Source: a virus. Taken from it: a DNA stretch of 20,228 nucleotides. Below are positions 1,079 to 10,858 of the stretch, piece after piece; positions within the stretch are counted from its first letter, which is position 1, and each line of letters opens with the position of its first letter. The notes below the pieces were generated by a model. That model was not told the origin of the DNA and did not search any database. It was given only the letters and a program-made list of their open reading frames with translations. The DNA lies in the IMG/VR virus record IMGVR_UViG_3300010293_000049, positions 1-20,228 of that record, one strand, 5' to 3'. The translations under genes and the position numbers were made by a program.

Positions 1079-1912
1079 ATGTCGAAGAACATTACCCAGA
1101 AAATCAGGGAACTTTTAACACCAGAAGATTTGAAAGTATTTGAGAGTGCTGTTGACAGCATGATCGAAGAAAAAACCAAAGCTAAACTTTCTGATTTGAT
1201 TCAACTTAAAGAAGAAGAGTTGAAAACAAAATATGAAAGTCTTGCTGAGAAATATGTTTCAAAAGAGGTGGATAAACGTTTGACTGATGAAAAAGCAAAA
1301 CTCGTAGAAAGCTATGATAAGAAACTTTCTCTTCTTGAACAGAAAGTTGTTACTAAACTCGACTCATATCTTGACCATGTAATCAGTGAACAAATCTCTG
1401 ATGAAATGCTTGAGAAGGTCGCTATCAATGAAACACTTCAGCCTGTGGTTGAAGGAATTCGTGCGGTATTTAGTGATAACCATCTTAAACTTAATTCCAA
1501 AGCACAGTCTACTATCAATAGTCTGACAAAAGGAATTGAAGAAATTAAGAGTGAACTTTCTGAATCAATAGAGAAGAATATTAAGCTTGAATCGAAGTTG
1601 GAACAGAGTGCTGTATATCTTTTGATTTCTGAAAAAACAAATGGACTTAAAAAATCTGACAAACAAAAAGTTGTTGGGATGTTCAAGTCTAAAGATTTCG
1701 AAGAAGTAGAAAAGAATATTGATAACTATCTTCAACTTATCAAAGAGAGCGATAGCATTAAAACCAAAAAACCTATGGCTAAAACTTCGGTTAAATCAAA
1801 GGTAGTTTCGGTAAATGAAGGTGTCGTTCCAGGAAATACAAAAAAGGCAATCGTTAAGGAAACTATTAAGGATCCTGTAACAATTGTAGACGTTTCAAAC
1901 AGATTATTGTAA
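1079..1912 (+). CDS. 22: Prohead core scaffolding protein, T4 gp22-like
   Basis: This 277-residue protein is highly charged and probably almost entirely helical. Lys/Glu-rich heptad-like stretches run through residues 20-110 and 140-225, as expected for a coiled-coil scaffold around which the prohead shell assembles and which is later degraded by the gp21 protease. Several L-x-E and I-x-E tripeptides (for example LKE and ISE) are possible cleavage sites. Length matches T4 gp22 (269). A strong AGGAGG precedes the ATG. It lies between protease and major capsid genes exactly as in T4. The call rests on size, composition and position, since scaffolds diverge quickly. Confidence 0.82.
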   Translation: MSKNITQKIRELLTPEDLKVFESAVDSMIEEKTKAKLSDLIQLKEEELKTKYESLAEKYVSKEVDKRLTDEKAKLVESYDKKLSLLEQKVVTKLDSYLDHVISEQISDEMLEKVAINETLQPVVEGIRAVFSDNHLKLNSKAQSTINSLTKGIEEIKSELSESIEKNIKLESKLEQSAVYLLISEKTNGLKKSDKQKVVGMFKSKDFEEVEKNIDNYLQLIKESDSIKTKKPMAKTSVKSKVVSVNEGVVPGNTKKAIVKETIKDPVTIVDVSNRLL

Positions 1913-1940
1913 TAACAAATAAATTATAGGAGGACATAAA

Positions 1941-3323
1941 ATGTCGAATTATAAAGAACAGTTAGTACGCAAATGGGAAAAAGCTAAAGGTCCCATGAGC
2001 ATTAAGAGCATTGAAGATCCTTACATGAAGGAAAACCTTGCTACTCTTCTTGAAAACCAGGAGAGAAAAGATTTTAACGGAAACCAGATTTTTCTCGGAG
2101 AATCAGATGGTGCAACAAATACAGGTGCATTAGATGGTGCATTTGGTAGTGATGCTGCAACTGCTGGTAATGGTGGACCTTCTGGATGGACAGGTGGAGA
2201 CTGGAGATACCGCCCGGTTGCTCTTGCTCTTATGAGAAGAACTTTCCCTGACCTTTTCGCTAACAAAGTTGTTGGTGTACAGGCTATGTCAACCCCAGTT
2301 GGTCTCTCATATGCTCTTCGTTTCACTTACAATAAAAGCGGAACAGGTGTTGAAGCGGCTTGGGATAATGTAGACAAGTATGCTGGATATACAGGTGAGC
2401 CTGGCGTAGGAACTGATGGTAAAGATACAAACTTTACTAAATTTACAGATGCAACATCTGCTGCTAATGTGTTTGGTACATCAGGTAGAGGTCTTTTGAC
2501 ATCTGCTGGTGAAGCTCTTCAGATTGCTGATAGCAGAACTGCATGTCTTACAGGATGCAATGAACCTGCATGGAATCAACTTGGTCTTCGTATCGATCAA
2601 CAGGCTATCGAAGCATTGACTCGTAAACTTGCAGCAAGCTTCTCTCTTGAAGCCGCTCAGGACATCAAGGCAATGCATGGTATTGACATCGAAAGAGAAA
2701 TGGTAAATGTACTTCAGTATGAAATTACTGCTGAGCTTGACCGTGAACTTCTTTCTTCTCTTAAGAGAGTTGCTACTGATTCAACCAAAGAAGGTCGTAT
2801 AATTCCTGCGGTTGATGTGTCTGCAAGTGATGATTATGGTCGTTGGAATGGTGAAAGATTCATGAGTGTTATCTCTGCTATCATCTATCAAGCTAATGAA
2901 ATTGCAATTAGCACAAGACGTGGACCTGGTAACTTTGTTATCGTGTCTCCTGATATTGCTACTGCTCTTCAGGCAGCAGGTCACCAGTTTGTTAACTATT
3001 CACAGAATGTTAATCCTGGTACAACTATGGCGGCTATCGGTAAACTCAATGGAACCATTGATGTATACCGTGATCAGTATGCTACAAGTTCATATGCTCT
3101 TGTTGGATACAAAGGTCCTGGAGTTTCTGATGCTGGTGTTATTTTCTCACCATATATCATGGGTCTTCAGAACAGAGCAATCTCTCCTGATGATTTTGCA
3201 CCAAGAGTGGGCGTTATGTCCCGTTATGCGATTACTGATTCGCTTCTTGGAGCTGGTCGTTACTACAGATTGATTCCTTTCATGAATGTAACAAAACTTA
3301 TTCCTGGTGCTAGAAGCTACTAA
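1941..3323 (+). CDS. 23: Major capsid protein, T4 gp23-like
   Basis: This 460-residue protein is the HK97-fold shell subunit. It shows gp23 family landmarks: YRPVALALMRRTFPDLFANK near residues 90-110, an NVLQYEITAELDREL segment near 255, GNFVIVSPDIATAL near 333, and the C-terminal stretch from VGYKGPGVSDAGVIFSPY to RYAITDSLLGAGRYY. T4 gp23 is 521 residues before processing. The N-terminal 54 residues end in F-L-G-E, which fits the (L/I)-x-E rule for gp21 cleavage, so the mature subunit probably begins at Ser55. AGGAGG precedes the ATG. The gene uses more CTT and GCT codons and looks less AT-rich than its neighbours, as expected for the most highly expressed protein. A strong terminator follows at once. 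Confidence 0.96.
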   Translation: MSNYKEQLVRKWEKAKGPMSIKSIEDPYMKENLATLLENQERKDFNGNQIFLGESDGATNTGALDGAFGSDAATAGNGGPSGWTGGDWRYRPVALALMRRTFPDLFANKVVGVQAMSTPVGLSYALRFTYNKSGTGVEAAWDNVDKYAGYTGEPGVGTDGKDTNFTKFTDATSAANVFGTSGRGLLTSAGEALQIADSRTACLTGCNEPAWNQLGLRIDQQAIEALTRKLAASFSLEAAQDIKAMHGIDIEREMVNVLQYEITAELDRELLSSLKRVATDSTKEGRIIPAVDVSASDDYGRWNGERFMSVISAIIYQANEIAISTRRGPGNFVIVSPDIATALQAAGHQFVNYSQNVNPGTTMAAIGKLNGTIDVYRDQYATSSYALVGYKGPGVSDAGVIFSPYIMGLQNRAISPDDFAPRVGVMSRYAITDSLLGAGRYYRLIPFMNVTKLIPGARSY

Positions 3324-3920: not shown

Positions 3921-4685
3921 ATGAGTATAACTCATCCGGTATCATTAGATGACATGAAACAATATGTCCTCACACGTTTAGGTCACCCTGTAATAAATGT
4001 GGAAGTTGCAGATATTCAATTAGAAATAGCAATATATGATACTATTCAAGATTTCAACAGATATAATTATGGTGATGGTGTAGATTTAGTTAATACTACA
4101 TTGATGGTGTCTGCAGGGGTGAGTGAATATTATGTGGGTGATAGTGGAATTGAGGCTGCATACGATATAGGTTTATCTACAATGGGTGATATAAATGCTT
4201 TATTCTCCCCAACACATATGTTATTGTATAATGACTGGGTAAACAACGGTAATTATCCTGGCGGACCTGGTAATGCATTATATTCGTTTGGTGGTGGAGG
4301 AGGAATGCTCACTAGTTATGAAATAATGGGTGAGTATATGGCACAAGCGAATCAAATGCTTGGTGCACAATATACTGTTAAATATAATTACAACAATAGA
4401 AGTTTAATTATAACACCCACACCGAAACAATGTATGCTTGCTACATTAAAATTATATTGCCGAACTGATGCCGAGAGATTATATAATCATCCTCTCGTTA
4501 AGAAATTAGCAGTCGCAAGAGCAAAAATACAATGGGGATTGCAATTAGGAAAATACACAATTACAATGCCCGATGGATCAACTATGAATGGTTTTGAAAT
4601 CATGAATAGAGGATATGAGGATGAAGAGAAGGCTTTCGATCAAATTAGAGCTGAGAGCGAGAAGCCTGATTTTTTTGTCGGTTGA
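3921..4685 (+). CDS. 13: Neck (head-completion) protein, T4 gp13-like
   Basis: This 254-residue protein resembles the gp13-type neck proteins of T4-like phages, which seal the portal after packaging and join head to tail. The N-terminal part (residues 8-45, with LGHPVINVEVADIQLEIAI and then a helix ending DFNRYNYGDG) is the characteristic helical start. A glycine-rich loop lies near residue 120 (SFGGGGGM). The C-terminal half ends in a helical region (KLAVARAKIQWGLQLGKY) and an acidic segment. Start choice: GGAG at 3911-3914 lies six bases before ATG 3921; an ATG at 3917 is in another frame and soon stops. Position upstream of the gp15, 16, 17, 18 and 19 homologues agrees with T4 order. Confidence 0.7.
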   Translation: MSITHPVSLDDMKQYVLTRLGHPVINVEVADIQLEIAIYDTIQDFNRYNYGDGVDLVNTTLMVSAGVSEYYVGDSGIEAAYDIGLSTMGDINALFSPTHMLLYNDWVNNGNYPGGPGNALYSFGGGGGMLTSYEIMGEYMAQANQMLGAQYTVKYNYNNRSLIITPTPKQCMLATLKLYCRTDAERLYNHPLVKKLAVARAKIQWGLQLGKYTITMPDGSTMNGFEIMNRGYEDEEKAFDQIRAESEKPDFFVG

Positions 4686-7360: not shown

Positions 7361-7723
7361 ATGTTTCTAGGAAGACCTAACTTAAGAGGCGAAGGTGAAA
7401 CTTATGAGTTCACTAATGAACTATTAGCAGAATACTTTAAGTGTGCGGAAGATATTGTGTATTTCGCTCATGAATACTTCTATATAACCAATATAGACGA
7501 TGGTAAACATAAAATACAATTATTCGATTTTCAAAAAAAAGCACTTAAAGTATTCACTAGCCCACAGGTTGATGGTAAGAAAAATACGATTGTCCTCATG
7601 CCCAGACAAATGGGTAAGTGTTTTTTTAAAGATACTAAAGTTAAAATAAGAAATAAAAAAACAGGAGAAATTGTTGAAATTTCCGCAGAAAATGTGTATA
7701 AGAGGATAGAGACAAAGAAATAA
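7361..7723 (+). CDS. 17: Large terminase fragment 1: N-extein to Walker A GK plus split-intein N-half
   Basis: Residues 1-86 are the N-terminus of a gp17-type packaging ATPase and end in VLMPRQMGK, the first half of the Walker A loop (T4 has SRQLGKT). Residue 87 is Cys, the first residue of an intein, followed by 33 residues with a KDTKVKI block-A pattern and a TGEIVEIS segment, then TAA. The polypeptide therefore ends in a 34-residue intein N-half. Alone it cannot bind ATP properly. It must trans-splice to the fragment encoded from 7820, whose extein starts with Ser-Thr, restoring PRQMGKST. A good AAGGTGG precedes the ATG. The stop is not a simple error, since the next gene has its own start and the complementary C-intein. 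Confidence 0.92.
   Translation: MFLGRPNLRGEGETYEFTNELLAEYFKCAEDIVYFAHEYFYITNIDDGKHKIQLFDFQKKALKVFTSPQVDGKKNTIVLMPRQMGKCFFKDTKVKIRNKKTGEIVEISAENVYKRIETKK
7619..7720 (+). other. Split intein 1, N-half (34 residues)
   Basis: It begins at the TGT codon for Cys1 immediately after the Walker A Gly-Lys codons and ends at the stop. The net charge is about +5 (ten Lys/Arg against five Asp/Glu). The break lies very near the intein N-terminus, unlike the canonical DnaE-type split that leaves about 100 residues on the N side. It matches the atypical class known from AceL-TerL, itself a phage terminase intein. Confidence 0.88.
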
Positions 7724-7819
7724 AACAATATCACCCTAATACACATAAAAGAATCCGATTACAATAACAACAAAGAAGAAGTTATTGAAAGGTGTTTAAA
7801 ATTTATAAATGGATAATAA
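7724..7819 (+). pseudogene. Gap of intein 1: probable remnant of a homing endonuclease C-terminus
   Basis: The 96 bases between fragment 1 and fragment 2 have no start codon in frame but read open for 30 codons (NNITLIHIKESDY, then NNNKEEVIERCLKFING), then TAA TAA, then the ATG of fragment 2. The LIHIxExD pattern followed by N-K-E-x-V and a final helix resembles the last strand and helix of Vsr/EDxHD-type nucleases, the endonuclease family described inside fractured split-intein genes. I infer that an endonuclease gene once filled this gap and was deleted except for its tail. The tail would be a different family from the HNH-like gene in the second gap. Confidence 0.5.
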
Positions 7820-8164
7820 ATGGCAGAAGTTATTGAGACACACGACATAGACGATTGGGAAATATTGAGTGATGATGGATGGCATGATTTAACACACATT
7901 CACAAAACGATTCCTTATGATGTTTGGTCATTGAAGACAGACACACACGAATTAATGTGTGCTGACGAGCATATTGTTATTAGATATGATGGTAGTGAAG
8001 TATATGTTATGGATTTGTGTGTCGGTGATAAATTAAAGACTGATAATGGTATTGAGTGTGTTGTAGAGGTTAAGAAATTAGATATGCCTCAAGAAAGTAT
8101 GTATGATTTTTCTGTTGATTCCGAAGATCATACATTATTTACTAATGGTATTTTATCACACAAT
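7820..8164 (+). other. Split intein 1, C-half (115 residues)
   Basis: From the start codon to the HN at 8159-8164. The block B position has ADEH near residue 48-51, with the usual Thr replaced by Ala and the His kept. Block F is YDFSVDSEDHTLF and block G is NGILSHN followed by Ser as +1 residue. It is strongly acidic (about 27 Asp/Glu against 7 Lys/Arg), complementary to the basic N-half. Confidence 0.88.
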
Positions 8165-8812
8165 TCTACTATGTCGTCTGTGTATTTGCTTCATTATATG
8201 TTGTTTAACAAGGATAAAGTTGTTGCTATATTAGCAAACAAAGAAACTGCGGCACAAGAGGTTTTAAGGCGTGTTAAGGGTGCTTATTCCATGCTTCCTT
8301 TATGGATGCAACAGGGTATTCGTAAATGGAACGAAGGTTCTATAGAGCTTGAAAATGGTATGCGTATGATAGCGAATACCACATCATCAGACTCCATTTC
8401 CGGTGAAACTGTTTCATTATTATATCTTGACGAGTTTGCAAAAGTTAAACCTCATATTGCTGAAGAGTTTGTAACATCAACACTTCCTGTAGTTTCCTCT
8501 GGTAAAACATCTAAGGTTATAATCGTTAGCACGCCACTTGGGATGAACCAATTCTATTCATATTGGCGTGGAGCAAATGAAACTGACCCTAAACTTGCGA
8601 ACAACTTCTATCCTATTAAGGTTAACTGGTGGGATCATCCTGACAGAGATGAAGCATGGAAGATTGAGCAATTAAAAACATTCAATAATGATTTAGCAAA
8701 ATTTAATCAGGAATATAATTGCTTGAAATCAGAAACTTATATAAATATTAAAGATACAGAAACAGGCGAAATATTAAATATGCCTATTTCCGAAGTATAT
8801 AATTTATTATAA
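7820..8812 (+). CDS. 17: Large terminase fragment 2: intein-1 C-half, ATPase core, intein-2 N-half
   Basis: This 330-residue protein has three parts. Residues 1-115 are an intein C-half ending YDFSVDSEDHTLFTNGILSHN, the block F and G pattern with the terminal His-Asn. Residues 116-300 are terminase: Ser-Thr completing Walker A, then VSLLYLDEFAKV (Walker B with the catalytic Glu), and IIVSTPLGMN (coupling motif). Residues 301-330 start with Cys after FNQEYN and form a second 30-residue intein N-half ending at the stop. The protein must splice at both ends. The upstream ribosome site is weak and the gene follows two in-frame stops, so expression could depend on re-initiation. It is the central piece of the packaging motor. 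Confidence 0.92.
   Translation: MAEVIETHDIDDWEILSDDGWHDLTHIHKTIPYDVWSLKTDTHELMCADEHIVIRYDGSEVYVMDLCVGDKLKTDNGIECVVEVKKLDMPQESMYDFSVDSEDHTLFTNGILSHNSTMSSVYLLHYMLFNKDKVVAILANKETAAQEVLRRVKGAYSMLPLWMQQGIRKWNEGSIELENGMRMIANTTSSDSISGETVSLLYLDEFAKVKPHIAEEFVTSTLPVVSSGKTSKVIIVSTPLGMNQFYSYWRGANETDPKLANNFYPIKVNWWDHPDRDEAWKIEQLKTFNNDLAKFNQEYNCLKSETYINIKDTETGEILNMPISEVYNLL
8720..8809 (+). other. Split intein 2, N-half (30 residues)
   Basis: It begins at TGC (Cys1) after the FNQEYN codons and runs to the stop. It shares T-G-E-I and S-E-V-Y features with the N-half of intein 1, suggesting common ancestry. It is slightly acidic (about -3), unlike the basic intein-1 N-half. Confidence 0.88.
8740..8747 (+). 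promoter_or_regulatory. TATAAATA motif inside intein-2 N-half, upstream of the endonuclease gene
   Basis: Exact late octamer lying 73 bases before the endonuclease ATG. It overlaps codons for Thr-Tyr-Ile-Asn-Ile, so it may be chance, but free-standing T4 homing endonuclease genes often have their own late promoter. Confidence 0.3.
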
Positions 8813-8820
8813 GGATTTCT

Positions 8821-9804
8821 ATGATATGTTTAGTTTGTGGCGACAATATTGAGAAATATACATCTACCCAATCGTTTATTACCCATCATGTGGCAAAATA
8901 TCACGGATTAAATGCTAAAGAATATTATGATCAATATGCTCGCAAAGACGGTGATGGTGTGTGTAAATGTGGATGTGGGAGACCAACAAAATTTGTAACT
9001 TTTATTAATGGTTATCGTAAGTGGCACAGTAGTCAATGCTATATTCAGTCTAGTGAATTTAGCGACACTATTAAGAACTCTTTTAGTGTTCGTGATATAG
9101 ATAGTGAATCTAAAAAAAGAAAAGATACATGTATTAAAAAATATGGTGTTGAGCACATATCCCAATTAGAAGAGACAAAACAAAAAGTAATAAACACAAA
9201 CATATCTAATTGCGGACATTATACTAATTTATTAACTCAAGATTGTTATGATGCTAGATGGAAATCGTTAAATGATAATAAAGATACTATTAATATTAAA
9301 AGACGAGAATCATGGACACCTGAAAAAATTCAAATAACATTACGAAAGAGAAAACAGACATGTTTAGAAAAATACGGAGTAGAGTCAGTTTTTCAATTAG
9401 ATGATGTTAAAAAACATACTAGACAAGTTAATGTTGATAATGGTGTGTGGTTAGAAGATGGTAAATTTAATGAATTTCAAGCATATCGACAACGCGTAAG
9501 ATATTATACATTATTACATAAGGACGAATTATTTGAAAATTGGGATGGTTTAGATTATTATACGGGGGATGATTTATTATTATTAAATAATGATTTTGAT
9601 GGTAAAGGATATTTTAAGTATCAGCCAACGATAGATCATAAAATTTCTATATTTTATGGATTTATTAATAATATAGATGAAAAAACAATTTCACATATAT
9701 CTAATTTATGTGTTTGTAGTAGAAGCATAAATGCTCAAAAGAATATTTTGTGTGAATTTGAATTTAAACAAAAGTTGATTGATAGAGGAGTTATTCATGC
9801 TTGA
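8821..9804 (+). CDS. HNH-like homing endonuclease inside the split gene
   Basis: This 327-residue protein lies in the gap between the halves of intein 2. The N-terminus has C3-x2-C6 with His22/23 and His28, a likely zinc finger. A second cluster at 48-73 (CKCGCG, then GYRKWHSSQC) is typical of phage homing nucleases. Two related modules, KYGVEHISQLEETKQK near 107 and KYGVESVFQLDDVKKH near 184, look like DNA-contacting repeats. The C-terminus has YYTGDDL, then PTIDHKISI (Asp272-His273), SNL (Asn295) and N-A-Q-K (Asn304), an HNH-style D-H/N/N arrangement. AAGGA precedes the ATG. The end overlaps the next gene by eight bases (ATGCTTGA). It probably spreads the intein by cutting uninterrupted terminase alleles. 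The exact catalytic family is an inference. Confidence 0.82.
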   Translation: MICLVCGDNIEKYTSTQSFITHHVAKYHGLNAKEYYDQYARKDGDGVCKCGCGRPTKFVTFINGYRKWHSSQCYIQSSEFSDTIKNSFSVRDIDSESKKRKDTCIKKYGVEHISQLEETKQKVINTNISNCGHYTNLLTQDCYDARWKSLNDNKDTINIKRRESWTPEKIQITLRKRKQTCLEKYGVESVFQLDDVKKHTRQVNVDNGVWLEDGKFNEFQAYRQRVRYYTLLHKDELFENWDGLDYYTGDDLLLLNNDFDGKGYFKYQPTIDHKISIFYGFINNIDEKTISHISNLCVCSRSINAQKNILCEFEFKQKLIDRGVIHA

Positions 9805-10141
9805 TACAGAAATAAGATATAATACACGATATCAAATAGAGACTCCTGATGGTTTTGTTGATTTCGATGGTATAGGTAAGATTAATATACCACAGTATAT
9901 TGTTCGTGTATGTTTAGAGTCAGGAACATATATTGATGTCAGTATTGGTCATATATTTGTTGTAGATGATGAAGAGATACCTGCACGAGAGTTGTGTGTC
10001 GGTATGCCTATACAGACCATTGACGGTTTTGATATTGTTTCGTCTGTGGATCTTATGGATGATATGGCTATTGTGTATGATATATTAGAAGTTGAATCAA
10101 AAAATAATTTATATTATGCTAATGGAGTACTAAATCACAAT
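9797..10141 (+). other. Split intein 2, C-half (115 residues)
   Basis: It has the ETPDGFVDFDGIGKI opening, block B SIGH near residue 49-52, ARELCVGM, block F VYDILEVESKNNLYY and block G ANGVLNHN before Cys. It is exactly as long as the intein-1 C-half and acidic (about -15). The overall pattern closely recalls the AceL-TerL C-intein. Confidence 0.88.
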
Positions 10142-10858
10142 TGCAAATTTATAGGATCGAGTGACACACTCATCGACCCTGAAATATTGGAGAGATTGGT
10201 TATTAGACAGCCAATAGAGTTTAAATGGAACCACGCATTAAGCATTTTCAATACCCCAGAAGACAATACAACATACATAATGGGTGTTGATACGGGTAAG
10301 GGTACGGGAAGGGATTATAGCGTCGTACAGGTGCTTAAAATCAATGGTGAGTTTGATGTTGAACAAGTGGCTATATATCGTAATAATTTAATATCCACAC
10401 ACGACTTTGCACAGGTGTGTATTGGTATATCGAAATATTATAATGACGCACAAATGATGATAGAAAATAATGGTATTGGTGAGGCATTAACTCAGGCAAT
10501 ATGGTATGAATATGAGTATGACCACATTATTAATTTAGATTCTTCGGGTCTAGGTGTTCGATCTACTGCTAAAAGCAAATTACAAGCTAATTTGTTATTA
10601 AAACGGTACTTGGACGAGAAATTCTTAAAAATAAAAGATGAATATACGATTACAGAATTATCACGATATATTGAAATTCGACCGAATGTGTTCCAGGCGG
10701 AGACAAGTTCGACACATGATGACTGTGTTACGGCGTTATTGTGGGCTTTATATTTCATAACTACTGATTATTTCGATAAAGACAACTTAGAGGTTAAAAC
10801 CCTTGATGATCAATATGATTTAACTAATAGTGGACCAATTATGTTTCTCCCAGATTAA
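9797..10858 (+). CDS. 17: Large terminase fragment 3: intein-2 C-half and nuclease domain
   Basis: Start ATG 9797 is chosen because GAGGAG at 9785-9790 lies six bases upstream; the frame extends to 9779 only with a TTG. Residues 1-115 are an intein C-half ending VYDILEVESKNNLYYANG then VLNHN. Residue 116 is Cys, the +1 extein residue, leading into CKFIGSSDTLID, the conserved terminase segment. The RNase H-like nuclease follows: YIMGVDTGKGTGRDYSVV (first Asp, about residue 165), MMIENNGIGEAL (Glu), and SSTHDDCVTALLWAL (HDD). These match T4 gp17 Asp401, Glu458 and Asp542 in order. This piece carries DNA-cutting activity without the ATPase until spliced. The protein is 353 residues, 238 of them extein. 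Confidence 0.92.
   Translation: MLDTEIRYNTRYQIETPDGFVDFDGIGKINIPQYIVRVCLESGTYIDVSIGHIFVVDDEEIPARELCVGMPIQTIDGFDIVSSVDLMDDMAIVYDILEVESKNNLYYANGVLNHNCKFIGSSDTLIDPEILERLVIRQPIEFKWNHALSIFNTPEDNTTYIMGVDTGKGTGRDYSVVQVLKINGEFDVEQVAIYRNNLISTHDFAQVCIGISKYYNDAQMMIENNGIGEALTQAIWYEYEYDHIINLDSSGLGVRSTAKSKLQANLLLKRYLDEKFLKIKDEYTITELSRYIEIRPNVFQAETSSTHDDCVTALLWALYFITTDYFDKDNLEVKTLDDQYDLTNSGPIMFLPD

Follow-up and report, generated by a model that had tools for sequence, protein, structure and literature searches.

A viral large terminase gene probably fractured twice by two unrelated split inteins

We will describe the large terminase gene in a stretch of viral DNA of 20,228 nucleotides (IMG/VR record IMGVR_UViG_3300010293_000049, positions 1 to 20,228), which we will call the window. 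The gene is found in three separate open reading frames. Very probably two unrelated elements, each formed by a split intein and a homing endonuclease, have broken it at two points, and two trans-splicing reactions would restore the motor. The original prediction read the three frames as successive parts of one terminase of the T4 gp17 type; it also gave the intein signatures, the lengths of the halves, the stops, the ATG starts and the division of the extein into 86, 185 and 238 residues. All of this holds at the same positions (Table 1). The best reading of the locus is also the original one, a terminase with two split inteins of the atypical kind; homologues, the fold predicted for one half, signs of selection and a cultured phage speak for it.

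The exteins of the three frames, once joined, have 509 residues. They match T4 gp17 from end to end (residues 2–489, 488 residues aligned, E 4.5e-77) and the alignment crosses both junctions continuously. Pfam detects Terminase_6N (2e-26) and Terminase_6C (9e-7). Judged by these matches the extein is a gp17-type large terminase, in which the ATPase domain and the RNase H-like nuclease domain are collinear with those of gp17. The first junction falls in the Walker A motif, between Lys and Thr/Ser: GK^ST, where the caret marks the junction, with RQLGK^T as its gp17 counterpart. The second is QEYN^CKF (QEHT^AAF in gp17); it is placed at the boundary of the ATPase and nuclease domains because the structures of the gp17 ATPase domain (2o0h, 2o0j, 2o0k) span query residues 2–278. 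The extein is strongly selected: the ratio of nonsynonymous to synonymous substitutions (dN/dS) is 0.04–0.10. All ratios were calculated with NG86, as YN00 mostly failed to converge.

We propose that three proteins would be made, E1–IntN1, IntC1–E2–IntN2 and IntC2–E3, where E is an extein piece and IntN and IntC are the N- and C-halves of an intein. IntN1 would dock into IntC1 and K86 would be spliced to S87, so that the P-loop of Walker A is completed. IntN2 would dock into IntC2, N271 would be spliced to C272 and the ATPase joined to the nuclease domain. The end product would be a normal 509-residue gp17-type motor. Each pairing is presumably specific. Given the order of the middle protein, pairing of the wrong halves would make E2 cyclic and might ligate E1 with E3. 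As for the origin of the breaks, in each case a split intein bearing an endonuclease would have homed into an uninterrupted gene. In the first site the endonuclease would later have been deleted save for its tail, and the split persisted.

Relatives were collected by scanning viral contigs with the extein; scans with the C-halves added about a hundred loci, numbered here with the prefix L. Across them the terminase has been invaded at four sites: a, in Walker A (GK^[ST]); b, around Walker B; c, VS^TPxG; and d, QE(Y/F)x^CxF(L/I)GS. The window is split at a and d. Intein 1 has Cys1 and ends in HN^S, intein 2 has Cys1 and ends in HN^C, and these class 1 split-intein residues are conserved in relatives. 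At site a all 45 C-halves end in HN followed by S or T; at site d the end is HN in 9 of the 12 and the next residue is C in 11 of them. Nearly all relatives keep the catalytic residues. In block B (T-x-x-H) the His is invariant in the alignment and Thr is replaced by Ala in intein 1, as in VidaL, and by Ser in intein 2, as in Cat. The C-halves are under purifying selection, with dN/dS 0.20 for intein 1 (window and L006) and 0.15 for intein 2 (L010 and L022).

The C-half of intein 1 has a predicted VidaL-like HINT fold. Its model (mean predicted local distance difference test score, pLDDT, 92) has VidaL as best match in the PDB, with a template modelling (TM) score of 0.82 and a root-mean-square deviation of 1.2 Å; 39 PDB chains are matched at E<=1e-3, nearly all of them inteins or intein-like domains. 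Sequence comparison also gives VidaL (4e-6), and the C-half of intein 2 may be assigned to the HINT fold from its sequence, by the match of intein 2 to CatC (1e-7). The N-halves by themselves were not detected by Pfam or NCBIfam. For them we used L080, a contiguous intein at site a: its model is a complete HINT fold, again nearest to VidaL, with the first two strands at residues 7–12 and 17–22 and the first helix at 23–29. The N-halves of the window, of 34 and 30 residues, align to this stretch and both end just after helix 1. In the atypical class of split inteins the N-half has about 16–37 residues and the break follows either strand 2 or the first helix; both inteins of the window fit it.

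Their lineages are different. In a tree of C-halves intein 1 is found among the Walker-A inteins, and intein 2 belongs to a supported clade of 28 rows, together with site-b, site-d and Cat inteins, from which intein 1 is excluded. By this tree there are two lineages, one Walker-A and VidaL-like, the other grouping with the AceL/Cat-TerL type. The two inteins fall in different supported clades and are separate acquisitions, not copies of each other; intragenic duplication of one intein into two is ruled out by the same tree. The original assignment of both to the AceL-TerL class stands for their geometry, a short N-half and a long C-half, but as a lineage it would apply to intein 2 only. The two inteins are 29–30% identical, which is consistent with orthogonal pairing but does not show it. 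Charge complementarity was considered as a general code for orthogonality and rejected: the window fits (N-half 1 +5, N-half 2 −3, acidic C-halves), but L030 breaks the rule (+4, +5).

Both gaps contain endonuclease sequences, which were absent from the original prediction. In gap 2 there is a complete free-standing gene (DUF7487, 3e-15; phrog_3339, homing endonuclease, 4e-14), whose 3' end overlaps the ATG of the intein 2 C-half by 8 nt. Its homologues occupy the equivalent gap in L010, L022, L030, L032 and L101. Gap 1 has 96 nt, is in frame with both intein halves and contains three separate TAA codons. It holds a remnant which is 54% identical to the C-terminus (residues 295–322) of an endonuclease whose reading frame is complete in the corresponding gap of L005; relatives, likewise intact, are present in L008 and L015. 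The L005 protein has C2H2 zinc fingers and resembles, though weakly, a Vsr/REase-like domain. Site 1 therefore once had an endonuclease, since lost, and the split stayed. On this evidence gap 2 is a fractured-gene gap proper, with a free-standing homing endonuclease between intein halves, and gap 1 has a remnant only. The nature of the loci as genes fractured by homing endonucleases would explain why the breaks exist. Other arrangements were observed in relatives. In L008 (5182–5865), and also in L007, a 227-residue paralogue of the terminase ATPase domain lies beside the endonuclease inside the intein 1 gap; it has phrog_5989 (5e-22), an intact RQMGKT and ends at the position of site d, so that it is a second, truncated terminase. 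In L050 (5592–6641), L064 (5595–6605) and L114 (site d) the N-half is fused in frame to a GIY-YIG endonuclease, which is the tail of the N-piece and not a free gene.

Among the relatives the sites may be empty, may hold one or the other intein or the two together, and further combinations occur over the four sites. L001, L002 and L003 have a terminase uninterrupted at both window sites. Only intein 1 is present in L005, L008 and L015, only intein 2 in L010. L006 has intein 1 and a contiguous LAGLIDADG intein at the third site, c; L009 is a near-identical copy of the window. Junctions were inspected individually; examples of doubly split genes are, for a and d, the window, L022, L025, L030, L032, L101 and L083; for a and b, L050, L064 and L093; for b and d, L103. 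A few C-halves lack an obvious ATG (site d of L083 and L101). Two split inteins are present in 12 of 52 terminases, scattered over the tree with at least 10 changes of the doubly split state (site states were assigned by hand); this is no population estimate, because the sample was drawn mostly by searching for these inteins. By these comparisons the double split is recurrent and not a one-off. In L022 (1090–2402) site c has a contiguous LAGLIDADG intein with an apparent frameshift, by error or decay, while the flanking split inteins look intact. L010 has just upstream of terL (4209–4652) a free-standing open reading frame of 147 residues, similar to an intein C-half, which ends in GGILVN with no extein after it.

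The Walker-A split inteins are also found in other P-loop ATPases: DnaB-like proteins (L036, L047, L078, L088), AAA/Clp proteins (L042, L044, L063, L090) and a clamp loader (L082). In these cases the insertion is always before the Ser/Thr of GK(S/T). By sequence they form a P-loop-specific family which spans unrelated genes.

Several cultured phages have similar breaks. In Salicola phage SCTP-2 (440 kb, MF360958.1) the terminase is in three pieces, far from one another and on opposite strands. Each of its two junctions, GK^T and LLY^CDEF, has intein halves; the depositors named all three pieces terminase, with no intein named in the annotation, and no intact terL was found in the genome. Cis RNA splicing and local assembly error are therefore ruled out there. 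Pieces on opposite strands in a plaque-forming phage are the strongest available evidence for joining as protein, which for the window is taken by analogy with its relatives. In Vibrio phage VmeM-32 piece 1 (79,947–80,624, minus strand) and the rest (1,102–3,216, plus strand) are about 79 kb apart. Site a is split in Agrobacterium phage Atu_ph07, site d in Providencia phage PSTRCR_127 and in Vibrio phage VP-1. Some details of SCTP-2 are peculiar: the site-b N-half of gp267 (L113, 3468–4361) has about 96 residues and seems to repeat part of the C-half region of gp224 (L139, 1494–3578), where the C-half is complete (112 residues), so that the split seems overlapping. A contiguous intein is also found in gp224 near site c.

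Table 1. Parts of the terminase and associated elements in the window and in Salicola phage SCTP-2
Sequence	Feature	Position	Strand	Reading frame	Remarks
Window	Extein piece 1, 86 residues	7361–7618	+	7361–7723	ends in Walker A, PRQMGK
Window	Intein 1 N-half, 34 residues	7619–7720	+	7361–7723	Cys1; CFFKDTK...ETKK; TAA stop 7721–7723
Window	Endonuclease remnant tail, zinc-finger/Vsr-like, 28 codons (gap 1)	7730–7813	+		in frame, no start codon
Window	Intein 1 C-half, 115 residues	7820–8164	+	7820–8812	own ATG; ends NGILSHN
Window	Extein piece 2, 185 residues	8165–8719	+	7820–8812	starts ST, ends FNQEYN
Window	Intein 2 N-half, 30 residues	8720–8809	+	7820–8812	Cys1; CLKSETY...YNLL; TAA stop 8810–8812
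Window	Free-standing homing endonuclease, 327 residues (gap 2)	8821–9804	+		between intein 2 halves; DUF7487, phrog_3339
Window	Intein 2 C-half, 115 residues	9797–10141	+	9797–10858	own ATG (9797) after AGAGGAG; ends NGVLNHN
Window	Extein piece 3, 238 residues, RNase H-like nuclease domain	10142–10858	+	9797–10858	starts CKF; stop included
SCTP-2	Piece 1 with N-half, gp534	429,356–429,748	-		hidden Markov model match 4.6e-34
SCTP-2	Piece 2 with C-half a and N-half b, gp267	256,428–257,321	+
SCTP-2	Piece 3 with C-half b, gp224	215,993–218,077	-

The genes around the terminase in the window are structural genes of the usual T4-like kind, for the head protease, the major head protein and the tail sheath. 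Among named phages, DNA similarity to the window is limited to short patches.

Some observations weigh against a double fracture repaired by splicing. Splicing of the window sequences is inferred. The contig is a fragment, and the virus might have an intact second terL elsewhere. The C-half of intein 1 is weak against the Pfam intein models and has the Ala already mentioned in block B; the N-halves alone are too short for the Pfam and NCBIfam models, and their dN/dS is high, 0.5–0.6, on 30–34 codons only. The ribosome-binding site of the first C-half is weak (GGA only).

Could the splits have a function? Gain by homing, loss of the endonuclease and persistence of the split suffice for what is found, and no function beyond restoration of the motor is needed. 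We consider it unlikely that the double fracture is a selected as well as recurrent state, in which two mutually exclusive trans-splicing reactions gate the assembly of the ATPase. If it were, there would be no active motor until all three proteins accumulate: one reaction completes the P-loop, the other attaches the nuclease. Quite unlikely, in our opinion, is the related idea that the splits are kept to regulate the motor, splicing being the timer of packaging or its AND gate. Splits do outlast the endonuclease, as in gap 1 of the window, in L030 (gap of 43 nt), in L103 (overlap at site d) and in SCTP-2. However, the close relatives L001–L003 do without any intein, and the patchy distribution, with its 10 changes, fits mobile elements and drift with no function required.

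The pieces might also function without any splicing, in a non-covalent complex, or the gene might be decaying, as the decay of the gap 1 endonuclease and the indirect case for splicing would allow. This we find very unlikely: piece 1 would stop inside the P-loop with a 34-residue extension and piece 2 would start with a 115-residue intein domain, while the catalytic residues are retained in nearly all relatives and the extein is strongly selected. RNA introns do occur in phage terminase genes, for example in terL of ICP1 (PMC10448857), and group I or II introns could remove the breaks from the RNA, the intein-like ends being a coincidence. It is extremely unlikely here: an Rfam scan of the window gave no match at the gathering threshold, dN/dS below 1 shows that the intein halves are kept as protein, an intein fold is predicted for the first C-half, and the pieces of SCTP-2 and VmeM-32 are tens of kb apart on opposite strands. 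Assembly or sequencing errors, conceivable in a metagenomic contig, have next to no probability. Several cultured phages, and contigs by the dozen which are independent of each other, have breaks at the same residues. The stops lie in frame, with three TAA in gap 1, and gap 2 has a complete endonuclease gene. A second contig (28,336 bp, IMG 3300025115), perhaps assembled anew from the same sample, has an identical arrangement and agrees over 12,720 bp with a single mismatch.

The double fracture by two split inteins thus remains the favoured explanation. The known natural split inteins that could be traced each interrupt their gene a single time; in the window a viral motor, an essential one, would need two orthogonal trans-splicing reactions. 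The recurrence on many branches, together with the dispersal in SCTP-2, allows a test of whether selfish endonucleases drive fracture as a one-way ratchet. Such inteins may also be a source of orthogonal pairs, co-evolved in nature and with short N-halves, for the ligation of three protein segments. The order IntC-extein-IntN is the one used in the laboratory for protein cyclisation; as the middle gene has this order, natural selection against cross-pairing is open to direct study.

We will finally compare the window with known systems. Fractured genes and split terminases are already known; the double natural fracture of one gene is the part that may be new. It had been thought unusual and perhaps undescribed: it is not a one-off, but the literature searched, which excluded the primary papers of 2009, 2014 and 2018, has no naturally doubly fractured gene. 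Fractured genes, as Dassa and colleagues are said to have described them in 2009, reportedly consist of an essential phage gene broken by a split intein, whose halves are separated by a free-standing endonuclease gene. The window is similar in its split essential gene and in the endonuclease of its second gap; it differs from the single split of those genes by two fractures due to two unrelated inteins and by one gap without endonuclease. The native insertion site of the AceL-TerL type may be exactly QEYN^CKF. In AceL-TerL, GOS-TerL and the consensus Cat intein the terminase large subunit is also split, with the N-half ending after helix 1, and intein 2 groups with Cat; they have been described with one split per gene, the window has two. 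The N-halves of AceL-TerL and GOS-TerL have 25–37 residues and end after the first helix (PMC11766414, PMC13014065). VidaL (PDB 6vgv) is the closest solved relative of intein 1 in sequence and fold, but its N-half has 16 residues and is split after strand 2 (PMC13014065), whereas that of intein 1 has 34 and ends after the first helix. The split PolB of Pseudomonas phage MIJ3 (PMC6892783) is a different gene with a single split. SCTP-2 follows the same principle, a terminase in three pieces with two split inteins, of which one occupies the Walker A site used in the window; its second split is at Walker B and its pieces are dispersed, whereas in the window the second split is at the domain boundary.
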